Positions 1-23,526 of a stretch of 34,804 nt of DNA are shown here, one piece after another. The notes under the pieces are model-generated. The model was not told the DNA's origin, made no database searches, and saw nothing but the letters and a program-made list of their open reading frames with translations. Source of the stretch: Candidatus Omnitrophota bacterium (GTDB lineage: Bacteria > Omnitrophota > JACPQZ01); NCBI GenBank assembly GCA_016190205.1, contig JACPQZ010000042.1, forward strand, positions 1 through 34,804, in the 5' to 3' direction. Both the position numbers and the translations under genes were made by a program. How positions within the stretch are numbered: position 1 is the stretch's first letter; every line of letters begins with the position of its first letter.

Positions 1-3000
1 CAGCTTGATGAGCTGCGGCAGGGATACGCTTTTGCAGCTCCGATACTTCAGGCCGACCTTCCTCGATTCGAGTGGGCCGGGAAGTTATGGAGGGATAAGT
101 ATAACGAACTTGTGGAACTCGTTCCGCTCCCTGAACTCCCGAAGGCCAAGCCAGGTATCCAGCCGGGGGTTTTAGTGGTTGTCCCTACGGGTGAAATGGC
201 TTACAGCCAGCCGGGTTCAAACCGCCTGGCTGGATGGCATGATGTCCCTTTGACAGACCAAGGCAGGCGCGAGGCGGCCGCGGCAGGGCAACTTCTTATT
301 CTCAATGAACTCAAGCTAGACCGGGCTTTCGCTTCGGATCAATCTCGTTCCATCGAGACGGCAGACATTATCCTTAAAGCAGGGGATTTCGGTGAGGTGC
401 CGGTCACGAAGCAGTCCGAGCTCAAGGGCCGCAATGCGGGACTCATGACAGGCTGGCGAATCCCGGATATGATCGACGTCTTCGGCAGGGAGACTTGTAA
501 GTACTGGAGCTTGGGATATTCGAGCAGTGACGCAAGACCCCCGGGCGGAGAAAATCTCTTAGACAGTCAGGAGAGGATTATCCCGCGTTTTGTGAATGAT
601 GTGATGCGTGAAGTAGTCGAGGGGAAAAATGTGCTGGTGTCACTTGATGATGACGCGATCCGCGCCATTCTGGTCTATCTTCGCAGACAGGAAGTGGACG
701 GGCCGCTTATGGAGGAGGATGTTATGGCACTCGAGATTCCGCGTGTCCCCTTCATCCATATTTCGTTCGAAGCAGGTCCGGATGGCCGCCTGACCAGTAA
801 TGAGATCTTTGTGTCGGGCAAGCAAGAGGTATCAGCAGAACGCGAGACTTCCGGGGATGGCCTTGGCGCTGTCGATGGTGTTTCGGAGCCGTCCATTCCA
901 TTTTTAGAGCGCGCGCCGCAGGATATGAAACTCAACGACCCCGTTCGGACAGTTGTGAGCGCCGATCTTGCGATTGACCTGGATGAAGATACCGGCATCC
1001 GTTCCATTAAGCTTAGCCGCCAGAGCCGGATCCTCGATGCCCTCATCCGGCAGATCGAGGGAAATCCCAACTGGGCTGTCACGGATATCTACGGGGTGGG
1101 CGATGTGGAGGCATTTGCCAGGTTCCTTAAGAACAATAAGGCGCACGGCCGGTTTAAAGGGAATCTTGAATATATGCTGGAACAGCCCATCGCAGGCAGC
1201 GACACCTCTGAGTTCGGTATTCTTCAGATAAACGGAGGTACAAGTATCGGGATCCACCGAAAGACGCTGGCACGTACTCACGGGATTATGCCGCCCGATA
1301 CCCAAAGGTTGATTCACTTCGCAGGGGCTGTTTCTCCGATCGGTTCTTACCCAAAAGATCTCAAGGTCATGTACATCCATCCCAGTCGCACGCCGGAGAA
1401 TGTTCCATTAACGGCCTGGGGCGTGTCCGGAACCCCAAGGGCTCATCATAAACACTTGTTACGCGTCTTACCCATGACCAGTCAAGGCGCTGCCCCGATC
1501 CTCCAAATACTCGGCAAGTATTTTGGAATTACCGCAGTCTCCATTGAAGCGGCCATGCCCTCCAATCAGATGGGTCAGGATCTCGACGTACAGCTCAATC
1601 AGCAGGTAGGCGGGGGACTCTCCCAGTTGCTGCCGGAAGTCTTCGGCCCGGGGAAGGCCCCTGTCATTAGTGGCGCCGGTGTGAGCTTTAGCCCGGTTAA
1701 GGGGGGGACAGAACTTTCTATTAATGTAGTTTTAAACAAACGAGATAGGCCTGTGACGGCGGATGAAGTAAACCAAGCGCTGAAGAAAGCTGTCCAGGAA
1801 GATCCGGCACTTTCTCAATTCATCTATTTTCCCTCTGACGACGAGGAGCCGGTTGCCTCGCACAGCGCAGACCGGCCGCAAGTGATCGTAGATTGGAAAC
1901 ACACAGGAGTAGTGGAGAGGGAATTTCAAGGAGGGCGTTATACACAGGTGAGCCTCAATGTTTGGATCAGCGAGTGGGCTTACGCGAGGGCCATCTGGGA
2001 CTTGGCCATCCGCGAGGAGCTTGCCCGTAACGCGCCGCGAGACCAGGATCCCGCACAGGCTCGGTTTCTCGCCTTTCAGCGCGGGCACGGGGCGGTTCCG
2101 CCGAGGCCGGAGTCTCAATACCGGGCTGTTTATGAACCCGTCCGGGATGCCGCCTTAAGCCTTGGACGGAAGGTGAAGGTGGCGATTCAGGGAGGCGGCG
2201 GGAGATCCGGCAAGCATGCCATTTGGGATCTCATCGGCAATCCTTATGTAGAACTTGTTGCGATCAATGGGGTGGACAACCTCGTTTCGTTGACGGAACA
2301 GCTTAAGCACGATGATGTATACGGGGATATTGATCTTGAGACAAGTTACGGACTTGACGAGAGCACGCGGCGGAACTTCATCATGCTCAATGGCCATAGG
2401 GTTTGGGTGTTTAACATAAGGGATGATATGACGAAACTTCCCTGGCGCGAGCTTGGGGTTGACGTCGTCGAGGAGATTTCAGGTACGCAGACCACGCGGG
2501 AGAAGGCCTATGGCCATATCGACGCGGGTGCCCAGGCCGTTCTCATTAATAACCCTCCGGGAGAAACGCTGGATGCCACCGTCATCCTGGGGGTCAACGA
2601 CGATGTGGGGCTGGACGGTACGGGCAGAATTTTCTCAATCGGATCATGCACGACGAATAATTGCGCGACACTCACGCAGGTGCTCGCACGGCGTTATGGG
2701 TCAGCCGGCATCTTAACAGAAAGTGGCAATACCATTCATGCCGTGACGAATACACAACGCCTCCTCGGCACCACCTCGGTAGAACCCCAGTCGCGGCGCG
2801 ACCGCTCGGGGCCTTATACGGCGCTTCGCACCTCATCGGGCGCCGGCGTACTCACGGCGCAGGTGGTGCCTGGAATGAAGGAAAACATCCAGGTAGCTGC
2901 CCTGCGGGCCGGAAACCCAACCGGTTCTGTGGTACCTCTTTTAATCCACCTGGCACCTGGGATTAAGACGTCCGTTGAGGAAGTAAACTCACTGTTTCAA

Positions 3001-6000
3001 GAGTCGGCTCAAACTGACCTACAGGGCATCCTGGCTGTTGAAGCTGGGGTCATGAGCTCCGGTGACATTTTGGGTAATCGCGCTTCGGCCGTCTTGGACC
3101 CGGAGCTGACGCGTGTCGAGGTGACCGAAGAAGGGACTTTGGTCTATCTGGTGGCTTGGTATGACAATGAGCCCGCACCCTCCGCCCGGATGAATGACAT
3201 GGCGGTTCTTGTGACCGCGAGGAAAGAAGCGTACCGACAGGGCCTGACCCCGCAAGAATCTCGCGCGCGGGAATTGGCCGAATGGTATTTCACCTCGAAT
3301 CAAAAAGAGGGCCTGACCGCACTTCGGCTGGAGCAATTGTGCAGATCGCGCGGAATCAGGATAGAACCTGCGCAGGCATTAAAAGTTTTGAATCGTATGG
3401 CGCATGAACGCCCGCTTGAGTTCCATCGGGAGATCGCAGACGCACAGGATAAGACCCATAACCTCTACAGCTACCGTCCGGTTCAACTCGCCACAGTGGG
3501 GCCCACCACTCCCAAACGCGGCGCGTTTACCGGGAAGGTGAGTATGGAGCATCTTGTAGAGGGCAGGGCAGGGGCCGTCTGGCTCGGCGACGATCCTTTA
3601 AGTGATGACAAAAGAACCGCTCTAGCAGTCAAAACGGCGCGATACTTGGGCCTCTACCCCATCGTTTCCATCAATGAGGCGACGGAGGTGGATCCCGAGC
3701 AGTTGAAGGGTCCAATCGAGCGGGCGCAGAGGAGCATAGCTCGAAGGCAACTCCTGGGGGAGGAGGGGGTCGCACGCCGCAGAAGAATCAGAAGCGATGC
3801 ACAGAGATCTGAACTCGTGGACCATCTCCTGGGCGAGCTCAAGGCACGCCTAAGCCCGACCTACCAGCTTACAAAGGAAGATCTTTTGCGGACCGCCCTT
3901 GCCTTCCGAATCGAGTCGGGAATGGAGGCCCAGGGTGTGCAAGAGGTGTTTAAGCATCTGCGCGCTCAACTGGCGCTGGAATACGGTATGGCGCCGGAGG
4001 AAGCCGCAAAGATTCCTTTCATTTATACTGGAAAACTTGCGGATGAAATTCCAGAAAATCATGTGAAGGCACTGCTCGCTCAAGAAGACGTCGGTGGCGT
4101 TTTCATTCCGGCGGAGCATTTTGAGGTGATCAGAAGACTCGAGGGCAATGAAGGTGACCCCCCCATTCTTCTAGTGGAGGCCCCGGCACAGCTCTCGGAG
4201 CGGGAGATCTTGGACGCCCTCGAGCCTTATCAGAAATCCTTCCGCATCGTCCTGCTCGCACCCTTTGAGCGTCTCTATGCCCTGGATCAGGAGCAAAAGG
4301 GTGCTCCCATTGATTGGGAGGCTCAAAGGCCGGTGGCGGTGTTTAGCCAGGGCATGGGCGAGCATCGCATCCTGGACGAGATTCTGAAACCCCTGGTTGG
4401 TCAACCCCAGCCTTTTGGCTGGAGTGCCAGGTTGAGCCCGGAACTTACCCCCCAGGCGCTCAAGGGAAGGGTCGACGGGGTGCTCGCCGGCCATTCTGAA
4501 ATCCGGAAGGATCTTAAGGATCGTATTGAAGCCCTTATCAACGCCGGCAGGCTGGTTGTGCCCCAGGGTGAGGTGCGGGAAACTTTCGTGCGCAGTCTGG
4601 TCGATCGGGTGATTCGGAAGGCCCTGGAGGAAGCCGTGGGAGTCCGCAGGCCCGGTGCGAAAAATATCCTAGCCATCAACGTGACGAATGAGGAGTACGA
4701 GGCGGGCCTTACGGAGCGGGTGATCGAGGCTCAACTTGTGGGAAATGCCTTCAACGGCGGGTTTGGCGCGCTTCGAAACATTTCACTGGAAGAGATGTTA
4801 GAGACCCTCGTGGTTTTTGAACCGGTATTTGCCATAGGCACGGGCAAGACGCCCACGTCGGACGTTGTGAAAAGTAAACTGGACCATGTGGAGAACGTTC
4901 TGGCGGGCCTCATTGCCGGCAAGTTGAGAATGATGGAAGCTGGAGCGCTGTCTGGGCTCATTCAGACGCATTTGAGCGAAGGTGAACGTGCGGCCCTAGA
5001 AGGCGCGACGGGTGCGGAGAAGATCGAGCGGTTGGCGCGGAGTTTGGCTAAACAGCAGATTTCGAGAGGATACGGCGGGAGCGTGAGCAAGGAAAATGTG
5101 GAGAGGCTCATCGCCGAGGCTGGCGGCGAGGTATGGCTGGTGGGAACCGCCAGCCGCAGTGCCGATGAATTTGCGGCCGTTGTAGACATGTCGGCGAGAA
5201 GGGGTGCCGCGGCAGGTGTGGTACCCTTTGCGATCGCCAACTGGAAGGCCGCAGTAAATAAACACTCTCCCCAGGAGCATGTTGCCACGCTCGCTCCTCT
5301 GATTGAACCTGAGTTTCGTTCGCCTGACGTGCGTGTGGGGCTATCCGTAGCGGCGACACAGATTCCCATCGTTGTGCAGGCGCTAAACGAGGCCACTAGC
5401 GAGAGGGAAGGGATGACGGGAGTGGCAAGTTCTGCAGGGGATGGCTTGGTGGAAGATGCGATTACGATCCCGCTGGAAAAGTTGCAAGTTACATTTGAGC
5501 AGGTGAATGCGACAGGCAGCGGCCGGATGGAACGCGTGTTGCGCCGTCAGCTCGCAAATCACCGTAGCTCTCTACTCGGACAGGTGATTTTGGCGCGTCA
5601 GGCGCGGGACTTGGTTAATATTTCAGCGACTCCTTTTTCCATTGTGGTGAGCGACGCGGCTATAACAGCGCAAGAGGGCTTAAGGGAGTTCGAAATCTTG
5701 CGGACTCTCTTCGGTCCGGAACAGGTCTTTACTGTGAGCGAATATCTTGGCAAGATTCGGCCGGTTTCTCCGAAGACCCTGTTTGTCGTGACGGAAAAAG
5801 AACAAGGTCTCATCGGGCTGGGAGATTTTGATCTCGGCCGGCTGTATCGCACAGAAAATTTTGAAGAGATCCACGTGTTTCGATGCGAGGGCAGTGTCCT
5901 TTCTGCCCTCCGGGGTATCAGTCGGGCCGTTCCTTTCCAGGATCACGTCCAGTTTTTACAAGAACTCATGCAGTCCATCGCCGAAGAAGTGACCCGCCAG

Positions 6001-6009
6001 GCCGCGTAA
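1..6009 (+). CDS. Giant multidomain fusion of PGAM-, GAPDH- and TIM-like modules (5' partial)
   Basis: The frame is open from base 1 with no stop, so the GTG at 112 in the ORF track is not a real start and the N-terminus lies upstream. Numbering from that GTG, the domains are as follows. Residues ~20-230 resemble phosphoglycerate mutase/histidine phosphatase (WHDVPLTDQG, PPGGENLL), but RHG is PTG and the second His is Leu. Residues ~277-633 are GAPDH-like, with Met455 in place of the catalytic Cys. Residues ~684-1050 are GAPDH with SCTTN (Cys846), IHAVTNTQ and WYDNE. Residues ~1120-1340 are a degenerate TIM (GAFTGKVS kept, GHSER lost). Residues ~1345-1695 are a TIM with GHSE (His1461), FEPVFAIGTGKT (Glu1570) and YGGSV but no NWK. 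A third TIM-like start with NWK (Lys1712) follows. Family assignments come from motifs read by eye. Which modules are active is inference. Confidence 0.85.
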   Translation, partial: QLDELRQGYAFAAPILQADLPRFEWAGKLWRDKYNELVELVPLPELPKAKPGIQPGVLVVVPTGEMAYSQPGSNRLAGWHDVPLTDQGRREAAAAGQLLILNELKLDRAFASDQSRSIETADIILKAGDFGEVPVTKQSELKGRNAGLMTGWRIPDMIDVFGRETCKYWSLGYSSSDARPPGGENLLDSQERIIPRFVNDVMREVVEGKNVLVSLDDDAIRAILVYLRRQEVDGPLMEEDVMALEIPRVPFIHISFEAGPDGRLTSNEIFVSGKQEVSAERETSGDGLGAVDGVSEPSIPFLERAPQDMKLNDPVRTVVSADLAIDLDEDTGIRSIKLSRQSRILDALIRQIEGNPNWAVTDIYGVGDVEAFARFLKNNKAHGRFKGNLEYMLEQPIAGSDTSEFGILQINGGTSIGIHRKTLARTHGIMPPDTQRLIHFAGAVSPIGSYPKDLKVMYIHPSRTPENVPLTAWGVSGTPRAHHKHLLRVLPMTSQGAAPILQILGKYFGITAVSIEAAMPSNQMGQDLDVQLNQQVGGGLSQLLPEVFGPGKAPVISGAGVSFSPVKGGTELSINVVLNKRDRPVTADEVNQALKKAVQEDPALSQFIYFPSDDEEPVASHSADRPQVIVDWKHTGVVEREFQGGRYTQVSLNVWISEWAYARAIWDLAIREELARNAPRDQDPAQARFLAFQRGHGAVPPRPESQYRAVYEPVRDAALSLGRKVKVAIQGGGGRSGKHAIWDLIGNPYVELVAINGVDNLVSLTEQLKHDDVYGDIDLETSYGLDESTRRNFIMLNGHRVWVFNIRDDMTKLPWRELGVDVVEEISGTQTTREKAYGHIDAGAQAVLINNPPGETLDATVILGVNDDVGLDGTGRIFSIGSCTTNNCATLTQVLARRYGSAGILTESGNTIHAVTNTQRLLGTTSVEPQSRRDRSGPYTALRTSSGAGVLTAQVVPGMKENIQVAALRAGNPTGSVVPLLIHLAPGIKTSVEEVNSLFQESAQTDLQGILAVEAGVMSSGDILGNRASAVLDPELTRVEVTEEGTLVYLVAWYDNEPAPSARMNDMAVLVTARKEAYRQGLTPQESRARELAEWYFTSNQKEGLTALRLEQLCRSRGIRIEPAQALKVLNRMAHERPLEFHREIADAQDKTHNLYSYRPVQLATVGPTTPKRGAFTGKVSMEHLVEGRAGAVWLGDDPLSDDKRTALAVKTARYLGLYPIVSINEATEVDPEQLKGPIERAQRSIARRQLLGEEGVARRRRIRSDAQRSELVDHLLGELKARLSPTYQLTKEDLLRTALAFRIESGMEAQGVQEVFKHLRAQLALEYGMAPEEAAKIPFIYTGKLADEIPENHVKALLAQEDVGGVFIPAEHFEVIRRLEGNEGDPPILLVEAPAQLSEREILDALEPYQKSFRIVLLAPFERLYALDQEQKGAPIDWEAQRPVAVFSQGMGEHRILDEILKPLVGQPQPFGWSARLSPELTPQALKGRVDGVLAGHSEIRKDLKDRIEALINAGRLVVPQGEVRETFVRSLVDRVIRKALEEAVGVRRPGAKNILAINVTNEEYEAGLTERVIEAQLVGNAFNGGFGALRNISLEEMLETLVVFEPVFAIGTGKTPTSDVVKSKLDHVENVLAGLIAGKLRMMEAGALSGLIQTHLSEGERAALEGATGAEKIERLARSLAKQQISRGYGGSVSKENVERLIAEAGGEVWLVGTASRSADEFAAVVDMSARRGAAAGVVPFAIANWKAAVNKHSPQEHVATLAPLIEPEFRSPDVRVGLSVAATQIPIVVQALNEATSEREGMTGVASSAGDGLVEDAITIPLEKLQVTFEQVNATGSGRMERVLRRQLANHRSSLLGQVILARQARDLVNISATPFSIVVSDAAITAQEGLREFEILRTLFGPEQVFTVSEYLGKIRPVSPKTLFVVTEKEQGLIGLGDFDLGRLYRTENFEEIHVFRCEGSVLSALRGISRAVPFQDHVQFLQELMQSIAEEVTRQAA

Positions 6010-13492: not shown

Positions 13493-13915
13493 ATGAAAAA
13501 GTGGGCGTTGGGTGTTTTGGTATTAGGGATCTTGCTGGGTTCGCCGGCCGCAGCGGAGAAGGGGCAGGAGGGTGAGGCCCTGGACGCGGCGACGGCCTGG
13601 ATTGCGCTTGTTGATCAAGGCGATTATGCGAAGAGCTGGCAGGAGGCGGCCGAGGCCTTCAAGAAGGGGGTAACGCAAGAGGAATGGGTGAATGCCCTGA
13701 CCGCGAACCGCAGTCCGCTGGGACAGGCCATGTCCCGTAAAGTGGCGACCAAGGAATCCAAGACCTCGCCTCCGGGGGCGCCCGAGGGAGAGTATGTCGG
13801 GATCAAATATGAAACGGTCTTCGAGCGCAGAGGGACGATGAATGAAGAAGTCACTCCGATGCGCGATAAAGACGGAAAGTGGCGGGTTTCAGGCTACTAT
13901 ATTTATACGCCATGA
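13493..13915 (+). CDS. Secreted DUF4019 domain protein
   Basis: This 140-aa protein has a clear signal peptide (MKKWALGVLVLGILLGSPAAA, cleavage expected near AAA-EK). A DUF4019 domain follows: ATAWIALVDQGDYAKSWQEAA, EEWVNALTANRSPLGQAMSRK, GEYVGIKYETVFE and KDGKWRVSGYYIY. The family is exported or periplasmic and of unknown function. The start is well set by GAGAGGAGG upstream of the ATG. It sits in the folate run and its TGA overlaps the folC ATG, but nothing in the protein links it to one-carbon metabolism. Confidence 0.85.
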   Translation: MKKWALGVLVLGILLGSPAAAEKGQEGEALDAATAWIALVDQGDYAKSWQEAAEAFKKGVTQEEWVNALTANRSPLGQAMSRKVATKESKTSPPGAPEGEYVGIKYETVFERRGTMNEEVTPMRDKDGKWRVSGYYIYTP

Positions 13916-16655: not shown

Positions 16656-18161
16656 ATGACCGAGCTCGTCCGGCTGGCGAGGGATTTTGGCTTTGCAGAT
16701 GAATCCCTGGTGTCGTATGGCCCGGACCGCATCAAGGTTTTTTTTGATCTTACGGCCGCCCCGGCGGGGGACGGCAGGCTCTTTGTCATTGCGGGCATGA
16801 CCCCTCCCCGCGAAGGGGTTGGAAAGTCGAGCGTCGCCCTGGCCTTGACGGATGCCCTCAACCGGCGCGGGACGCGCGCGCTTGCGTCCATGAGGCATCT
16901 CTCATTAGGCGAGGCCGTTGGGAAGGGGCCGGGAAAAGGGTACCTGCCGCGCATAGAGCCTGAAGAGGTCTTTCGCTTCGCGGTAAACCAGGACTCGGGC
17001 CTGGTGGCCTCGTGCCAGAACCTTTTCGCAGCGCTCGCAGATCAGGCGCTAAAGACGGGCGCCTTCGCTCTGGATCCACAGAGGGTTTTCGTGAAGCGCT
17101 GCCACGACCTCTGCGACGACACCCTTCGCCGCGCAGGTTTTGTGCTGGCCGGATCGAGCGAGCTGATGGCCATACTGGCCCTGGTGACGGATCCCGATGA
17201 GGTTGAGTCCCGCGTGGGCCAGATGATCGTGGGGTGCAACACCGCAGGGGGTGCGGTCCGCGTCCGTGACTTTGGCGCCGGGCAGGCGGCCGCGCGTATC
17301 TTAAAGTGCGCGGCGCGTCCCGATCTTATGCGCACGTCGGGCGGTTCGCCCTGTCTGGTGCATACGGCCAGTTTCGCGCATACCTCCCTGGGCTCATCCT
17401 CAATCACCGCCGACCGGATGGCCCTGGCGCACGGGGCCGTCTGCGTGACCGAGACCGGATACGGGTCAGAGCTCGGCCTGGAAAAGTTTTTCGACATCAA
17501 GGTTCGTGCCTGGGGGCGCTTTCCCGAGCGGGTTATCCTGGTGGTCTCGGTGAGCGCCATTCGCGCCCAGGGCGACGGGGAAGAGCTGGATTCAGGAATG
17601 GCCAATCTCGGCGCGCATGTGGAAAACGTAAGGAAATTCGGCTATGAGCCTGTTGTCGTGGTGAACCGCTTTGAATCTGATTCCGCAAAAGATCTGGAGG
17701 CATTGGCCTCCGGGATCCGTGCGTTAGGATTCCTTTCCTTTACTGTCTCCCTCGGTGAGAAGGGGCATCCGGGAATGGACGAACTTGCAGAGGCCCTTTT
17801 TGTAAGAAAAGACGCTTGCTCGTTCACCCTCGGCTATAAACTGGCCGCGCCTCTTCAAGAGAAGGTGGAGTCGGTCGCCCGCACGTTTTTTGGAGCGGAA
17901 GGCGTGGAATTTTCGAATGAGGCTCTTGAGGAGATGGAAAACTTACGTAACGAGGGATATGACCGTTTTCCCGTCATGTTCGTCAAAACGCCCTTTTCCC
18001 TTGGCCATGCATCTTCGCTCAAGGGGCGTCCGAAGGGGTACATGTTACCGGTCAAGGATATTTCGTATTGGGCCGGGGCAGGTGTTGTGCGCGCTGATTG
18101 CGGAGGGGTGCCGCTCATGCCGTCCTTCAAAACGGGCCCGGAAGTGATCAACCTGACATGA
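16656..18161 (+). CDS. fhs: Highly divergent formate-tetrahydrofolate ligase homologue
   Basis: This 501-aa protein aligns throughout with FTHFS (usual length about 557). VIAGMTPPREGVGKSS corresponds to the P-loop, VFVKRCHDLCDDTLR to WKRVxDxNDRxLR, LVHTASFAHTSLGSSS to VHGGPFANIAHGCNS, CVTETGYGSELGLEKFFDIKVR to VTEAGFGADLGAEKFxDIKCR, and PVMFVKTPFSLGHAS to the KTxYSxSD motif. Both classic signatures are degraded: GGAAGGGY reads GKGPGKGY, and the VAT-RALK-HGG motif reads VSVSAIRAQGD. HFTGD reads AVNQD, keeping the Asp. The P-loop Lys and the Arg of R-x-x-SLG remain. Operon position (fchA overlaps its stop as ATGA) argues for expression and a folate role. Retained activity, altered substrate or a structural role are all possible. 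Confidence 0.78.
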   Translation: MTELVRLARDFGFADESLVSYGPDRIKVFFDLTAAPAGDGRLFVIAGMTPPREGVGKSSVALALTDALNRRGTRALASMRHLSLGEAVGKGPGKGYLPRIEPEEVFRFAVNQDSGLVASCQNLFAALADQALKTGAFALDPQRVFVKRCHDLCDDTLRRAGFVLAGSSELMAILALVTDPDEVESRVGQMIVGCNTAGGAVRVRDFGAGQAAARILKCAARPDLMRTSGGSPCLVHTASFAHTSLGSSSITADRMALAHGAVCVTETGYGSELGLEKFFDIKVRAWGRFPERVILVVSVSAIRAQGDGEELDSGMANLGAHVENVRKFGYEPVVVVNRFESDSAKDLEALASGIRALGFLSFTVSLGEKGHPGMDELAEALFVRKDACSFTLGYKLAAPLQEKVESVARTFFGAEGVEFSNEALEEMENLRNEGYDRFPVMFVKTPFSLGHASSLKGRPKGYMLPVKDISYWAGAGVVRADCGGVPLMPSFKTGPEVINLT

Positions 18162-18781
18162 TCGTTGAAAAATCAGTCCAGCGTTTTATAAAGGAGCTTG
18201 CAAGTCCCAGCCCCGTGCCTGGAGGCGGCAACGTCTCCTGTGTAGTGGCGGCACAAGCTGCGGGGCTCGTTTCGATGGCTTGCCTCATTTCGGCGAGGCG
18301 TGAGGAGGCGCTGCGGAAGAGGACGGCCCTCAAGGAGCTTGCGGCGTCGGCGGACGTGCTTATCGATCTGGGATTAAGCCTTGCCGAGCTGGACGCAGAG
18401 GTCTTCACGCGGCTCATCCAGATTTTTAAAACGCGCTTTCGCAGCTCCGCCGAGAGAAGGCGCAGTCTAAGGGAGGCGCTCTCGTTTTGCGCGGCCGCAT
18501 GTCTCGACCTTTTGCTGCTCGCACGTGAGGGGGCCCTTTTGAGCGCGCGAGCCAGCCGGCTCGCCGGGCATGAGATGCTGTCGGAGATCCACACCGCCGT
18601 CTTTTTATGGGATGCTGCGTTTGAAGGCGCCCGGATCAATACCCGCGCGAATCTCGCGTGGCTTAAGGAGCGCGAGGTTGAGCGGCGGGTCCGCGGCTTC
18701 GTTGAGAAGGTATCCGTATCTTACAGGAAACAGAGGGCCATGACGCTCAAGGCATTGCGCGCGCGGGGTGCGCGTATATGA
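18158..18781 (+). CDS. fchA: Methenyl-THF cyclohydrolase FchA (formiminotransferase-cyclodeaminase family)
   Basis: This 207-aa, mostly helical protein begins with FIKELASPSPVPGGGNVSCVVAAQAAGLVSMAC, matching the F-x-x-x-LAS-x-x-PxPGGG signature of the cyclodeaminase/FchA family. In acetogens and purine-fermenting clostridia this stand-alone protein converts 10-formyl-THF and methenyl-THF. I use ATG 18158 (ATGA overlap with fhs) rather than the upstream start in the ORF track, because homology begins there. Its TGA also forms ATGA with folD. The gene matters here because the adjacent FolD has lost its cyclohydrolase residues. Confidence 0.85.
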   Translation: MIVEKSVQRFIKELASPSPVPGGGNVSCVVAAQAAGLVSMACLISARREEALRKRTALKELAASADVLIDLGLSLAELDAEVFTRLIQIFKTRFRSSAERRRSLREALSFCAAACLDLLLLAREGALLSARASRLAGHEMLSEIHTAVFLWDAAFEGARINTRANLAWLKEREVERRVRGFVEKVSVSYRKQRAMTLKALRARGARI

Positions 18782-19662
18782 AGACTGGAAAACTTTTGAC
18801 CGGCAAGGACCTGGCCGTCAAGATGCAGGTGCCATTGGGGCAAGAAGTATGCAGACTCACCAGGCGTTTCGGGCGCCGGCCGACCTTGGCGGTCATCCGG
18901 ATCGGTGGGAGGAACCATGCCCAGGCCGCCTATTTGAGAAGCCAGGAGCGGCTCGCGTCCCTTTTAAATATCGGATACCGGCTCATCACGCTCCCCGCGA
19001 GGACAAATGAGGCCCGGCTCCTCCGGGTGATTCAGCGTCTTAACCGTGATGCCGCGGTGTCGGCCATCCTGGTTCTCATGCCGGTCCCCCGGCACATAGA
19101 CGTCAAGCACATCATGCATCACATCCTGCCCGCCAAAGATGCTGAGGGCCTGCATTCTGAAAACCTGGGCCGGCTTGTTATGGAGCGCGATCACGTGGTC
19201 CCGCCCACGCCGGGGGCGATCATGACGCTTCTAAAAAGCTCCCGCGTCAATCTTGCGGGAAGGGAAGCGGTGGTGGTGGGCCATAGTCAGGTGGTGGGAA
19301 GGCCCCTGGCCCTTATGCTCTTGAGGGAGCTCGCGACCACGACCGTCTGTCACATCGCGACCTCCCGGCGCGGGCACCTCAAGAAACATGTTGAGAAGGC
19401 TGAAGTACTGATCGTTGCGGTGGGCAAGGCGGGTCTTATTCCGGGGCGTTGGATTCGAAGAGGGGCCATCGTAGTGGACGTGGGGCTCAACCGCAAGGGG
19501 GGAAGGCTCGCGGGAGATGTTGACTTTGAAGGCGCGCGGAGGCGCGCGAGCCTCATCACCCCTGTTCCCGGAGGGGTGGGCCCGCTCACGGTGACCATCT
19601 TAATGAAAAATGTCGTGGAGTGCTTTAAGTGGCAGCATGGAGTGGGGAGGCATAGGATATAA
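18778..19662 (+). CDS. folD: FolD-like methylene-THF dehydrogenase lacking cyclohydrolase residues
   Basis: The 294-aa protein has the FolD fold. An N-terminal catalytic half is followed by a Rossmann half with VVVGHSQVVGRPLALML and a C-terminal TPVPGGVGPLTVTILMKN. Three catalytic positions are changed. The YVxxK lysine is Gln (AAYLRSQER), the Gln of VQLPLP is Leu (ILVLMPVP), and the KDVDG aspartate is Glu (AKDAEGLHSENLGRL). In characterised FolD/MTHFD proteins the Lys and Gln are needed for cyclohydrolase activity. The dinucleotide site looks intact, so I infer a dehydrogenase working with FchA, its ATGA-coupled neighbour. Complete loss of activity remains possible. Confidence 0.85.
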   Translation: MKTGKLLTGKDLAVKMQVPLGQEVCRLTRRFGRRPTLAVIRIGGRNHAQAAYLRSQERLASLLNIGYRLITLPARTNEARLLRVIQRLNRDAAVSAILVLMPVPRHIDVKHIMHHILPAKDAEGLHSENLGRLVMERDHVVPPTPGAIMTLLKSSRVNLAGREAVVVGHSQVVGRPLALMLLRELATTTVCHIATSRRGHLKKHVEKAEVLIVAVGKAGLIPGRWIRRGAIVVDVGLNRKGGRLAGDVDFEGARRRASLITPVPGGVGPLTVTILMKNVVECFKWQHGVGRHRI

Positions 19663-19667
19663 ACGCA

Positions 19668-19752
19668 CGGGGTCAGGTCTTGCATTATAAGATTTCCGTG
19701 CCTGATCTGTGCATTTGAATACCAAAATGTGATAATGCAAGACCTGACCCCG
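19668..19752 (+). repeat. 85-bp REP/MITE-like inverted repeat
   Basis: GGGGTCAGGTCTTGCATTAT (19669-19688) is perfectly complementary to 19732-19751, and one more outer C-G pair makes 21 bp, around a 43-nt interior. It is the only sizeable gap in the one-carbon run and lies between folD and metF. The arm resembles ends I associate with REP-linked tyrosine (Y1) transposases, but no transposase is present in the window. In RNA it would form a long hairpin and could affect read-through into metF. Confidence 0.85.
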
Positions 19753-19766
19753 ATGACGAGGGCATC

Positions 19767-20636
19767 ATGACTCTTAAAGAGAAACTTAAGCAGGGCAAGT
19801 TCGTTGTCACGGCAGAGCTCAACCCCCCCAAGGGGACTGACCTCACGCAGCTTTATCAAGGCGTGGACCTTTTAAAGGGCAAGGTAGACGCCTGCAATAT
19901 TACGGATGGGACGGGGGCGCTTATGAAGGCCGCGCCTGTCCCCATTGCCTCCCTGGTTAAGGAGCGGGGGATTGAACCTATCCTCCAGCTTACGTGCAGG
20001 GACCGCAACCGCATGGCGCTTCAGTCGGAGCTTTTGGGGGCCTGGTGCTTAGGCGTCCGGAACATGCTGGCCCTGGGCGGGGATCCCATTCAGATCGGGG
20101 ATCACCCGGAGGCCAAGCCGGTGTATGATCTGGACACCCTGGGACTTATCAAGGCGGCCAAGACGCTTTCACAGGGCAAGGATCTGGCGGGGAAGGAGCT
20201 CACCGGCTCGCCTGATTTCTTTGTAGCGGCAGCCGCCAATCCAGGTGCGGATGATCTCGATAGCGAGATGAGTAAGACGAAGGCCAAGATAGACGCCGGC
20301 GCGGATTTTTTCCAGACCCAGGCGGTGTTTGAGCAAGCCGTGTTCGACCGCTGGTGGACGAAGGTCAAGGGGATAGGAAAACCTATGATCCTGGGGGTCA
20401 TCCTCGTGAAGTCTGTCAAGATGGCTCAATATATGAATAAGCACATCCCCGGAGTTCATATTCCCGACCCGCTGATGAAAAAGCTGGACGAAGCCCCTGA
20501 TAAGGCCGAGGCCTGTGTCGAGATCGCCTCGAGCCTCATTCGTATGGTTAAGGGTGCCGTTCAAGGCGTCCACATCATGGCAATCGGCTGGGAAGACAAG
20601 ATCCCCGCGGTGCTTAAAAGGTGCGGCCTTGGATAA
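19767..20636 (+). CDS. metF: Methylene-tetrahydrofolate reductase
   Basis: This 289-aa MTHFR barrel has KFVVTAELNPPKGTD near the N-terminus (the family's catalytic Glu and PP turn), NITDGTGALMKAAPV, the LTCRDRNRMALQSELLGAWCLGVRNMLALGGDP core, and DFFQTQAVFE. It reduces 5,10-methylene-THF to 5-methyl-THF, the last folate step of the Wood-Ljungdahl methyl branch. No separate MetV-type gene with a Fe-S motif adjoins it; MetE/UroD-like methyltransferases follow instead. The ATG is about 15 bp beyond the inverted repeat at 19668-19752. The next gene starts within its last codons. Confidence 0.9.
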   Translation: MTLKEKLKQGKFVVTAELNPPKGTDLTQLYQGVDLLKGKVDACNITDGTGALMKAAPVPIASLVKERGIEPILQLTCRDRNRMALQSELLGAWCLGVRNMLALGGDPIQIGDHPEAKPVYDLDTLGLIKAAKTLSQGKDLAGKELTGSPDFFVAAAANPGADDLDSEMSKTKAKIDAGADFFQTQAVFEQAVFDRWWTKVKGIGKPMILGVILVKSVKMAQYMNKHIPGVHIPDPLMKKLDEAPDKAEACVEIASSLIRMVKGAVQGVHIMAIGWEDKIPAVLKRCGLG

Positions 20637-21555
20637 AAGTCTCCGCCACGGCTTCCGCCCGCGCGGGGCTGTGACAGGCGTGGGCAGTGTGGCGTGGACG
20701 GAGCCCGAGCGCGCCCTCGAGGTAATCCTGCGTTATTGCCCTGAAGTCCCTTACTGGCCGCAGCTTCCCTTAAGGGCCCAGTCGGAGGGTATGATTGAGC
20801 AGGCCTTGAGCGGAGCTGAATTGAGCGCCGAGAGTGCCGCTGGATTTTTCTATTGCATGGAGCGGCTCAAGGCGGGCCCGCCCGCCTTTCGTTATTTCAA
20901 GGGCCAGATCACGGGGCCGTGGACGCTGGCGTTTCAAACAAAGAAAAGTCCGGAGGCCGTGGTGGATAGCGTCCGCGCGAAGGCCCTGCAGCAGGCGCGG
21001 GAAATTAAGAGCCGCTCCTTAGTGCCCATCATCTTTTTGGATGAGCCCTGCTTGGTCCTTTTGGAAAAGCCCGCATTTCAGACCGAGAGAGAGAATCTCG
21101 CTCCACTCCTTAAGCATCTTATCGATGAACTGAAGGAGGAGGGGGCCCTGGTGGGAGTGCACCACTGCGCCGATGGCGCGTGGGACCTCATGCTCGAGTG
21201 CGGGGCTGATATAGTCCATTTTGACGCCTTTCATTTTATGGATTCGTTTCTTGAGTCACTGGAGGCCTTGCGCGGTTTTTTTCAGAATGGGGGGTGTGTC
21301 GCATGGGGGATTGTGCCGACGAGAGGCGAGCTCAGGCGGCTCAAAGCGGCAGAACTAGTTGAACGGATCCAAATGGCATTTCGAAAGCTGGCTGAAGTTG
21401 GCCAGGAACCCCCGGCCATTTTTGAGCGTTCCCTGGTCAGCCCGGCTTGCGGTCTTGCAGGTCTCGCCCAGGCGGACAATGTATGGGTTTTTGAAATCTG
21501 TCAGGCGGTATCGAGGCTCTTAAAGAAGCAGTTTAGTATAAAGGAGAAATTTTGA
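20629..21555 (+). CDS. UroD/MetE-like methyltransferase (methyltransferase 1 of 3)
   Basis: This 308-aa barrel protein resembles the cobalamin-independent methionine synthase C-terminal / UroD superfamily: GVGSVAWTEP, YCPEVPYWPQLP, FKGQITGPWTLAF, FLDEPCLV, GVHHCADGAWDLML and SPACGLAGL. His-x-Cys in VHHC and the Cys in SPACG match positions that bind zinc in MetE, so a thiol-activating metal site looks possible. It probably transfers a methyl group from a folate or corrinoid donor; substrate unknown. The TTG at 20629 is chosen because homology begins there and AAAAGGTG precedes it by about 8 bp. The ORF-track start lies deep within metF. It overlaps metF by 8 bp. Confidence 0.7.
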   Translation: MDKSLRHGFRPRGAVTGVGSVAWTEPERALEVILRYCPEVPYWPQLPLRAQSEGMIEQALSGAELSAESAAGFFYCMERLKAGPPAFRYFKGQITGPWTLAFQTKKSPEAVVDSVRAKALQQAREIKSRSLVPIIFLDEPCLVLLEKPAFQTERENLAPLLKHLIDELKEEGALVGVHHCADGAWDLMLECGADIVHFDAFHFMDSFLESLEALRGFFQNGGCVAWGIVPTRGELRRLKAAELVERIQMAFRKLAEVGQEPPAIFERSLVSPACGLAGLAQADNVWVFEICQAVSRLLKKQFSIKEKF

Positions 21556-22524
21556 ATGAAAACGACCGTAGTGGGAGGGTATCCCAAGATTCTCGAGGAT
21601 CAGCTCCTCCGCAAGACCCTTTGGGAGATTGATCGCGAGGGCGGTAAGGCCAATGGAAAGCTGGAAGAGGCGGTTCAAAAAGTCACGCGCTCCGCGATCC
21701 GCGAACAGGAGGAGGCGGGGCTTGACATTGTTTCCGACGGGGCCATCCGCTGGGAAGATGAAATTACGGCTTCCCTAAGGGGAATGGAAGGCATGGAGTT
21801 TACGGGACTCATCCGTTACTTTGACACGAACGTCCTCTACCGCCAGCCGGTCGTGACGCGTCCCGTAAAGCTCAAAATACCGGCCCTTGCGGCCGATTAC
21901 TCCTTCGCGGTGAAAAACGCGAAGAGGCCGGTAAAGGCTATTATGACAGGGCCCTTCACGATCGCGAAGGCCTCGCGGGATGAATATTACCAAAACGGGG
22001 AAAAGTTTGTTTTGGCCTTCGCGGAGGCCCTTCGGGGGGAGCGCGAGGCCCTCGAGCGGGCCGGGGCCAAAAAGATCCAGATAAATGAGCCATTCCTCTT
22101 AAGCGCCCCAGAAGAGTTTGAGCTTTTCCGCAAGGGGTTCCGGACCCTGGCCGAAGGGGCCAGGGCGGAGCTTGAGCTTTTCTTTTCCTTCGGCGATTTT
22201 TCGAAGGTGTTCCCCAAGATCATGGACGTGTGCGTCTGGCGCGTGGGGTTTGACTTAGGCACGGCGCGAAATCCCGAGCGCATCCTCAAAGACAAGGTCT
22301 GGAAAGGCAGAAAGCTCCTGGCCGGGGTCATAGATGCCCGCAACACGCGCCTTGAGACAAAGGAGGAGCTTCACGGAAGGCTCAAGGCGGCCTTGGCTTG
22401 CGTCGCGTCCCAAGACCTCGAGGTCGCGCCCAGCGCAAACCTGGAATTTCTGCCCCTCGACCGCTGCCGCGCGAAACTGAAGAACTTGGTAAAACTGACT
22501 CGTGATTTTAAGGAGGTTGTTTAA
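21556..22524 (+). CDS. MetE-core paralogue without zinc ligands (methyltransferase 2 of 3)
   Basis: This 322-aa protein is clearly homologous to the next gene and to the MetE catalytic barrel (VGGYPKI, ELEEAV-type helices, IMTGPFTIAKAS, KIQINEPFLL, AGVIDARNTRLETKEEL). The metal ligands are gone. The expected H-x-C region reads LFFSFGD (Phe and Ser), the Glu position reads FDLG, and the PDCGLKTR Cys region reads APSANLEFL. It follows the previous gene directly, and the third paralogue starts at the next base after its stop. I infer a non-catalytic or redesigned subunit, perhaps a partner of the intact paralogue. A distinct zinc-free methyltransferase is the alternative. Confidence 0.75.
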   Translation: MKTTVVGGYPKILEDQLLRKTLWEIDREGGKANGKLEEAVQKVTRSAIREQEEAGLDIVSDGAIRWEDEITASLRGMEGMEFTGLIRYFDTNVLYRQPVVTRPVKLKIPALAADYSFAVKNAKRPVKAIMTGPFTIAKASRDEYYQNGEKFVLAFAEALRGEREALERAGAKKIQINEPFLLSAPEEFELFRKGFRTLAEGARAELELFFSFGDFSKVFPKIMDVCVWRVGFDLGTARNPERILKDKVWKGRKLLAGVIDARNTRLETKEELHGRLKAALACVASQDLEVAPSANLEFLPLDRCRAKLKNLVKLTRDFKEVV

Positions 22525-23526
22525 ATGAGGCCCGTTTCAGAATGTCTTCCCACCACTTCGGTCGGAAGTTTCCCCAAGCCGGAGGAACTTAAAACGGCGC
22601 GCACGCGCTTCACGCGCGGCCAGATTAAAAAAGACGAACTCACGCGGCTCGAGAAAAAGGCCACCGAGTTCTGGATCCGCAAGCAGGAGGAGCTCGATAT
22701 TGACCTTGTGGTCGATGGCGAGATGTACCGCGGCGACATGGCGACTTACTTCGCTGAAAACGTGGGCGGGTGTGAAATATCCGGCCTCGTCCGCTCTTAC
22801 GGCAACCGCTACTACAAAAAGCCCATAGTTACGGGTCCCCTTAAGTTTAAGGGGGCGATCACGGTGGAGTGGTTTAAGTTCGCTCAAGGGTTGACCGACC
22901 GGCCCGTCATCGGGATGTTTACCGGGCCCTACACCATGATGGACTGGTCGTTTATCGAGTATTACAAGACGCGGGAGGAAGCGGCCATGGCCTGGGCTGA
23001 AGTGTTGCACGAAGAGGCCGCGGCGCTCGAGCGGGCCGGGGCCCAGTACATCCAGATTGATGAGCCGGCCGTGAGCGTGCGGCCCGAAGAGATGGACCTC
23101 GCCGTCCGCGCCATGGAGGTGGTGGTGGAAGGCCTCAAGGCCAAGACCATCACGCACATCTGTTACGGGGCTTTTGAAAAGATCTACCCAAAGGTCCTCG
23201 AAATCCCGGTGGACCGGATTGACCTCGAGATGTCCAACTCGGGCCTGGATCTTTTGGAGCACATGAAGAGAAATCCGTTCACGAAGGAGCTCGGCCTCGG
23301 CGTGGTAGACGTCCATTCCCACAAGCTGGAGTCCAAGGATGAGGTCAAGAAACGCATCCGTGATGTGATGAAGTATGTCCCGGCGGAGCGCCTCTGGGTG
23401 GATCCGGATTGCGGATTAAAGACGCGCACGGTGGACGAGGCAATTGAAAAGATGCGTGTAGTGTCGGAGGCAGCGAGAGAGGTCCGCAAGGAGCTCAAGG
23501 TAAAAGGAAAGGTATGCCGAAGCTAG
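22525..23526 (+). CDS. Core methionine synthase (MetE C-terminal domain type; methyltransferase 3 of 3)
   Basis: This 333-aa protein contains only the catalytic barrel of cobalamin-independent methionine synthase. TTSVGSFPKP opens it, FTGPYTMMDWSF and YIQIDEPAV follow, and a full zinc site is visible: THICYG (H-x-C), DLEMSNSG (Glu) and VDPDCGLKTR (Cys). Core-MetE proteins lacking the N-terminal folate domain are known in archaea and some anaerobic bacteria and take methyl groups from corrinoid donors rather than from methyl-THF triglutamate. That fits a Wood-Ljungdahl context, but the donor is not shown by the sequence. The end overlaps panB by 13 bp. Confidence 0.85.
   Translation: MRPVSECLPTTSVGSFPKPEELKTARTRFTRGQIKKDELTRLEKKATEFWIRKQEELDIDLVVDGEMYRGDMATYFAENVGGCEISGLVRSYGNRYYKKPIVTGPLKFKGAITVEWFKFAQGLTDRPVIGMFTGPYTMMDWSFIEYYKTREEAAMAWAEVLHEEAAALERAGAQYIQIDEPAVSVRPEEMDLAVRAMEVVVEGLKAKTITHICYGAFEKIYPKVLEIPVDRIDLEMSNSGLDLLEHMKRNPFTKELGLGVVDVHSHKLESKDEVKKRIRDVMKYVPAERLWVDPDCGLKTRTVDEAIEKMRVVSEAAREVRKELKVKGKVCRS

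Follow-up and report, generated by a model that had tools for sequence, protein, structure and literature searches.

The question raised by this locus is whether a FolD that has lost the residues of its cyclohydrolase site still catalyzes both of its reactions, or whether one of them is left to FchA, the methenyl-THF cyclohydrolase-like protein encoded directly upstream. The window, by which we mean the whole stretch of DNA analyzed (34,804 nucleotides of contig JACPQZ010000042.1), comes from an assembly of a Candidatus Omnitrophota bacterium of 1.65 Mb that is 92.8% complete. The first-pass annotation of the window had proposed a division of labour in which FchA performs cyclohydrolysis and FolD dehydrogenation only. 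The genes fhs, fchA, folD, and metF form a tight plus-strand run of folate one-carbon genes (Table 1), preceded on the same strand by genes starting at 13879 and 15245, which we take from their sequences to be folC and mnmE, respectively. The stop codon of fchA and the start codon of folD have an ATGA in common, as do those of fhs and fchA, so that each pair overlaps by 4 nt, and MetF represents the next step after FolD in the same C1 branch. All four frames are open, and the GC content at third positions is about equal among them. A genome search recovered one folD and one fchA.

Table 1. Features of the folate one-carbon locus (window positions)
Feature	Position	Strand	Details
fhs (formate-tetrahydrofolate ligase-like)	16656..18161	+	501 aa; PF01268 E=1.7e-107
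fchA (methenyl-THF cyclohydrolase-like)	18158..18781	+	207 aa; PF04961 (FTCD_C) E=6.5e-28
folD (QE-type, predicted dehydrogenase-only)	18778..19662	+	294 aa; PF00763 E=3.8e-24, PF02882 E=1.4e-58; clade membership
metF (methylene-THF reductase)	19767..20636	+	PF02219 E=2.6e-44
CAG codon, FolD Gln56 for E. coli Lys54	18943..18945	+	
CTC codon, FolD Leu100 for E. coli Gln98	19075..19077	+	
GAG codon, FolD Glu123 for E. coli Asp121	19144..19146	+	
GAG codon, FchA Glu143	18584..18586	+	Asp in 159/159 other FchAs

The window FolD belongs to the same two-domain family as the bifunctional FolD of E. coli (PDB 1b0a and 5o22; residues 3-283 aligned, E ~1e-65). Both domains occur in order and score well above their cut-offs (PF00763, 85.6 versus 32.8 bits; PF02882, 197.2 versus 27 bits), and the cofactor motifs are kept, in the forms GHSQVVGRP and ITPVPGGVGP. 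In contrast, the residues characteristic of bifunctional FolDs are replaced: Gln56 stands for the lysine of YxxxK (K54), Leu100 for the glutamine of VQLPLP (Q98), and Glu123 for the pterin-binding aspartate of KDVDG (D121), the latter change preserving a carboxylate. Tyr52, corresponding to Y50, is kept. The alignment and the codons thus confirm the three replacements named in the first-pass annotation, and its further observations, an intact Rossmann half and an overlapping upstream fchA, also hold; a second canonical folD that could carry both roles was not found in the 92.8% complete genome. The best score against the NCBIfam equivalogs for bifunctional FolD was 282, below the cut-off of 355, which is weak evidence since many of these models are lineage specific. 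All 28 phylum-conserved columns are kept, by which we ruled out decay of folD; the protein appears to be under normal constraint. Yeast MTD1 (PDB 1edz), for which we know of no FchA partner, is very distant from the window FolD (partial match, E=2e-6) and belongs to another lineage. It is a natural NAD-dependent monofunctional dehydrogenase according to Barlowe and Appling (1990), as cited in PMC11064299.

We then searched 285 Omnitrophota genomes for FolD and FchA. Each was found in 270 genomes; 269 had both, 14 had neither, a single genome had FchA only (G075), and a single one had FolD without FchA (G091, 72% complete), where the 2.6 kb read around folD contained no FchA. Wherever both genes were read in a locus they lay on the same strand, mostly abutting, overlapping, or a few nucleotides apart, and in a few cases at a distance of about 0.85 to 1.0 kb, which leaves room for one gene. 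Among 81 distinct FolDs, including that of the window and leaving out row L058 (a misassigned FchA), residue 54 was Gln in 78, Leu in 2, Ile in 1, and Lys in none, while residue 121 was Glu in all 81; family f14 combines Leu or Ile at 54 with Glu121. Residue 98 was Q in 59, H and S in 6 each, T and F in 3 each, N in 2, and L and P in 1 each. The Lys-to-Gln and Asp-to-Glu changes are therefore phylum-wide, and only the Gln-to-Leu change, at a freely varying site, is peculiar to the window FolD. This ruled out a triple change unique to the window, two of the three changes being common to the phylum. Since K54 was absent from, and E121 present in, 81 of 81 proteins, these changes are not due to chance.

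For the comparison with other phyla, FolDs were coded by the residues at E. coli positions 50/54/98/121, the canonical code being YKQD. The phylum labels of the two samples were deduced from their centre records, Caloramator proteoclasticus for Bacillota and a Spirochaetaceae MAG for Spirochaetota. The Bacillota sample comprised 149 genomes, with the FchA family in 87 and FolD in 147, and 130 FolDs were read. YKQD was found in 59 of 63 FolDs from genomes without FchA, in 29 of 43 with FchA elsewhere in the genome, and in none of the 24 adjoining FchA, which read YKED (14), YAFD (7), or YLLD/YLMD (3). Clostridial fhs loci with FchA likewise carried FolDs of the type Y-A/I/S-F/L/M-D (rows L130 and L158 being misassigned). 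Similarly, among the 60 Spirochaetota genomes YKQD occurred in 39 of 39 FolDs without FchA or FTCD, in 2 of 15 with a distant FchA, and in 0 of 4 with an adjacent one (2 of 19 with FchA overall). Pooling both samples, canonical residues were present in 98 of 102 FolDs without FchA versus 0 of 28 beside FchA. Fisher tests of adjacent versus none gave 1e-17 and 8e-6, values that ignore shared descent and so overstate the evidence. In both phyla, FchA is strongly linked to a non-canonical FolD. Nevertheless, the 29 Bacillota FolDs that are canonical despite a distant FchA indicate that the loss is not an inevitable result of having FchA. The four Bacillota FolDs that lacked YKQD without FchA were second FolD copies (YQQE, YQHE, or YQNE); for three of them the YKQD companion from the genome concerned was also read, the remaining copy being that of G351. 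As a rule, FolD cyclohydrolase residues were lost almost only where another cyclohydrolase, either FchA or a canonical FolD copy, was encoded.

In a tree of 108 FolDs from which columns 50-54, 98, and 121 had been left out, one clade of 45 rows (SH-aLRT 100) brought together the window FolD, all of the 36 further FolDs included from the phylum, and the YQxE copies of Bacillota, apart from the canonical, YKED, and YAFD FolDs. We call QE FolD a protein having Gln54 and Glu121 (K54Q + D121E) together with placement in this clade, to which the window FolD belongs with the trait columns left out. The clostridial FchA-linked FolDs (Y-A/I/S-F/L/M-D) form a separate clade that does not include it. Forcing all Lys-less FolDs together was rejected only marginally (p-AU 0.048), and parsimony on a quick tree required at least four changes of Lys54, which changes again within the YKED group (YLLD/YLMD). 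In a better tree than the quick one, the phylum FolDs form their own clade, and the Bacillota QE copies may be sister to them rather than nested.

The Bacillota QE copy usually adjoins a canonical-residue FolD copy, most often beside xseA (tandem pairs in loci L344-L350), and in two loci (L345 and L348) NfnAB-type transhydrogenase genes adjoin the QE copy; we assigned the names nusB, xseA, and Nfn ourselves, by sequence and Pfam domain content. In the companions YKQD is kept, and the cofactor motifs have changed, GRSNIVGKP to GWSIEIGKP or GDSFDL, PCTP to GVTA or SCAA, and CHSRT to VHP. The QE copies show the reverse pattern, with cofactor motifs kept and cyclohydrolase residues changed. Such complementary losses would be expected if the dehydrogenase and cyclohydrolase activities had been split between two FolD copies.

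From residues, gene order, clade, and co-occurrence we infer that QE FolD is probably a dehydrogenase only and that the cyclohydrolase step is performed by FchA or by a canonical FolD copy. Its NAD(P)-binding half is retained, as is the tyrosine that stacks on the folate, and the lysine needed for cyclohydrolase activity is lost, so that the protein would most likely catalyze only the reversible 5,10-methylene-THF/5,10-methenyl-THF dehydrogenase step. The interconversion of methenyl-THF and 10-formyl-THF would be left to FchA, whose gene lies directly upstream and overlaps, and with FTHFS before and MetF after, the four proteins would make up a formate-to-methyl folate branch. This is in good agreement with findings in E. 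coli FolD, where K54N left no detectable cyclohydrolase and about 19% of the dehydrogenase activity, and Q98H about 1% and 8%, respectively (PMC5688156). Since Q98H retained only 8% of the dehydrogenase activity, the leucine of the window FolD at this site could weaken its dehydrogenase too. E. coli Asp121 corresponds to Asp125 of human MTHFD1, which contacts the edge of the pterin and has been called invariant (PMC6443876); in QE FolDs the carboxylate is kept on a side chain one methylene longer. The earlier proposal of a dehydrogenation-only FolD is thus well supported by comparison, through the phylum-wide loss of Lys54, the constant FchA partner, the link seen in two further phyla, and the E. 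coli mutants.

The cofactor may also differ. Human MTHFD1 binds the 2'-phosphate of NADP through a trio of residues, Arg, His, and Ser (PMC3368264). The window FolD (GHS, CHI) has His for the Arg, keeps the His, and has Ile for the Ser, and among 82 phylum rows the Arg position is His in 57 and the Ser position Ile in 53. Because two of these three residues are gone, QE FolD probably uses NAD(H). This prediction is of moderate strength, since the NADP-using FolD of E. coli departs from the trio too, with Ala and Arg at the Arg and Ser positions. We see about an even chance that QE FolD constitutes an old, separate, dehydrogenase-only and probably NAD-linked subfamily, which serves with FchA as the sole FolD of the phylum and in some Bacillota divides the two activities with a tandem copy.

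That FchA supplies the cyclohydrolase step, as the first-pass annotation had it, stands for the phylum and is less sure for the copy in the window. This protein scores 98.1 bits against PF04961 (cut-off, 24.5) and only 58 bits against the NCBIfam FchA equivalog (cut-off, 275; E=8.6e-16). It has PGGG and Asp79 in common with the methenyl-THF cyclohydrolase 7vg4 and with 1o5h of Thermotoga maritima, which belong to the same FchA/FTCD_C family, and it also keeps Asn165. However, it is remote in sequence (E=8e-9) and carries Glu143 in place of an invariant aspartate, a residue unique among 160 FchAs (the 159 others being 79 from the phylum and 80 from Bacillota). A single-base assembly error in this codon is possible. 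The window FchA is also tied as the most diverged among 80. None of the 49 phylum FTHFSs has diverged further than its FTHFS neighbour, in which 15 of the 55 conserved columns differ and motifs including REPSLGPxFGIKGG, NLHFTGD, and PFANIAHG have been rewritten, while the P-loop and the frame are intact. These changes are too many to be explained by a single-base assembly error and would reflect either drift or a changed function. FolD and MetF of the window are normally conserved. Both cyclohydrolysis and the ligase step may therefore be altered in this genome. A search of the genome, at its 92.8% completeness, for the acetyl-CoA synthase family PF03598 (CdhC/AcsB) gave no match, and a Wood-Ljungdahl role in this genome was therefore rejected.

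The divergence of these two proteins could mean that FTHFS and FchA are eroding here and that FchA is not a true partner of FolD, methenyl-THF being hydrolyzed spontaneously or otherwise. Spontaneous turnover has been noted (PMC5688156), and the missing acetyl-CoA synthase match, the D143E change of FchA, and the rank of both proteins as most or joint most diverged of their sets would all fit. We nevertheless consider this unlikely, since all frames are open with 4-nt overlaps and nearly the same third-position GC in the four genes, FchA keeps PGGG, Asp79, and Asn165 with an Asp-to-Glu change that is mild, and FolD and MetF are normally conserved. A modified pterin or another one-carbon carrier as the substrate of QE FolD would explain D121E together with the drift of FTHFS and FchA, the more so as the pterin contact described as invariant in human MTHFD1 is Glu in 81 of 81 phylum FolDs. 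Yet a carboxylate is kept at 121, the genes of the locus (FTHFS-FchA-FolD-MetF, with folC close by) are those of ordinary folate metabolism, and elsewhere in the phylum the same QE FolD occurs together with an FTHFS whose motifs are the ordinary ones, all of which makes such a substrate very improbable.

A further alternative is that the site has been rewired and that QE FolD is still bifunctional, with Glu121 and Gln54 together standing in for Asp and Lys and with FchA boosting the rate. The two changes are indeed fixed together in nearly all of the phylum's copies and in those of Bacillota, as one would expect for a compensated pair. On the other hand, Lys54 has been lost differently beside FchA in other lineages (to A, I, L, or S), Glu121 also accompanies Leu or Ile54 in family f14, and the E. 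coli K54N protein lacks detectable cyclohydrolase (PMC5688156), so that we regard a rewired bifunctional site as very unlikely. We thus favor a dehydrogenase-only FolD partnered by FchA.

A comparable arrangement is known from Clostridium perfringens, for which Aluri et al. in 2016, a study cited in PMC7219735, reportedly found FolD to be a monofunctional dehydrogenase, with a separate FchA as the cyclohydrolase and Fhs also in the set. This division of labour is like that proposed for the window. However, the FchA-adjacent Bacillota FolDs that we read (the C. perfringens sequence not being among them) are YKED or Y-A/I/L/S-F/L/M-D, keep Asp121, and fall in other parts of the tree than QE FolD. 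Clusters of fhs, fchA, and folD are known from acetogens and syntrophs (PMC3584212). A limited literature search turned up no description of the QE clade, of a tandem FolD split, or of the fixation of QE FolD throughout the phylum; this fixation, the clade with its D-to-E change, and the lost NADP-phosphate contacts predicting NAD use appear to be new. Nearly all annotations, the NCBIfam names included, present FolD as a bifunctional enzyme. If our reading is right, this label would misname the protein in most or all members of the phylum, as well as in many Clostridia and Spirochaetota. Models of their one-carbon metabolism would then have to include FchA and, for the QE clade, would probably have to replace NADPH by NADH. 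Tandem FolD pairs would then represent a natural separation of two activities of one active site, useful for studying the cyclohydrolase mechanism; according to a recent study, no mechanism had been proposed for this step (PMC9173628).

Several minor observations were made in the phylum and in the window. Two FTCD_C matches with one FolD were found per genome in G035, G036, G042, G050, and other genomes of family f16, unlike in most of the phylum. In one phylum-mate (L045; G249:C33:55079-55261), FolD- and FchA-like segments lie within giant frames of 8,199 and 18,421 aa, in addition to a normal fchA-folD pair; giant open frames have been described for Omnitrophota (PMC10066038). The folD-metF gap of the window contains an inverted repeat (19668-19752) with 28-nt arms that are 93% complementary and a 29-nt loop, and since no T run follows, it is not an ordinary terminator. 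After metF come three MetE/URO-D-like genes (20515-23526), the first of which has no family match over the cut-off and which are possibly core-type methionine synthases. Finally, a single frame of 1965 aa (112-6009) combines a histidine-phosphatase (PGM-like) domain, both domains of GAPDH, and triosephosphate isomerase and is a fused glycolytic polyprotein.
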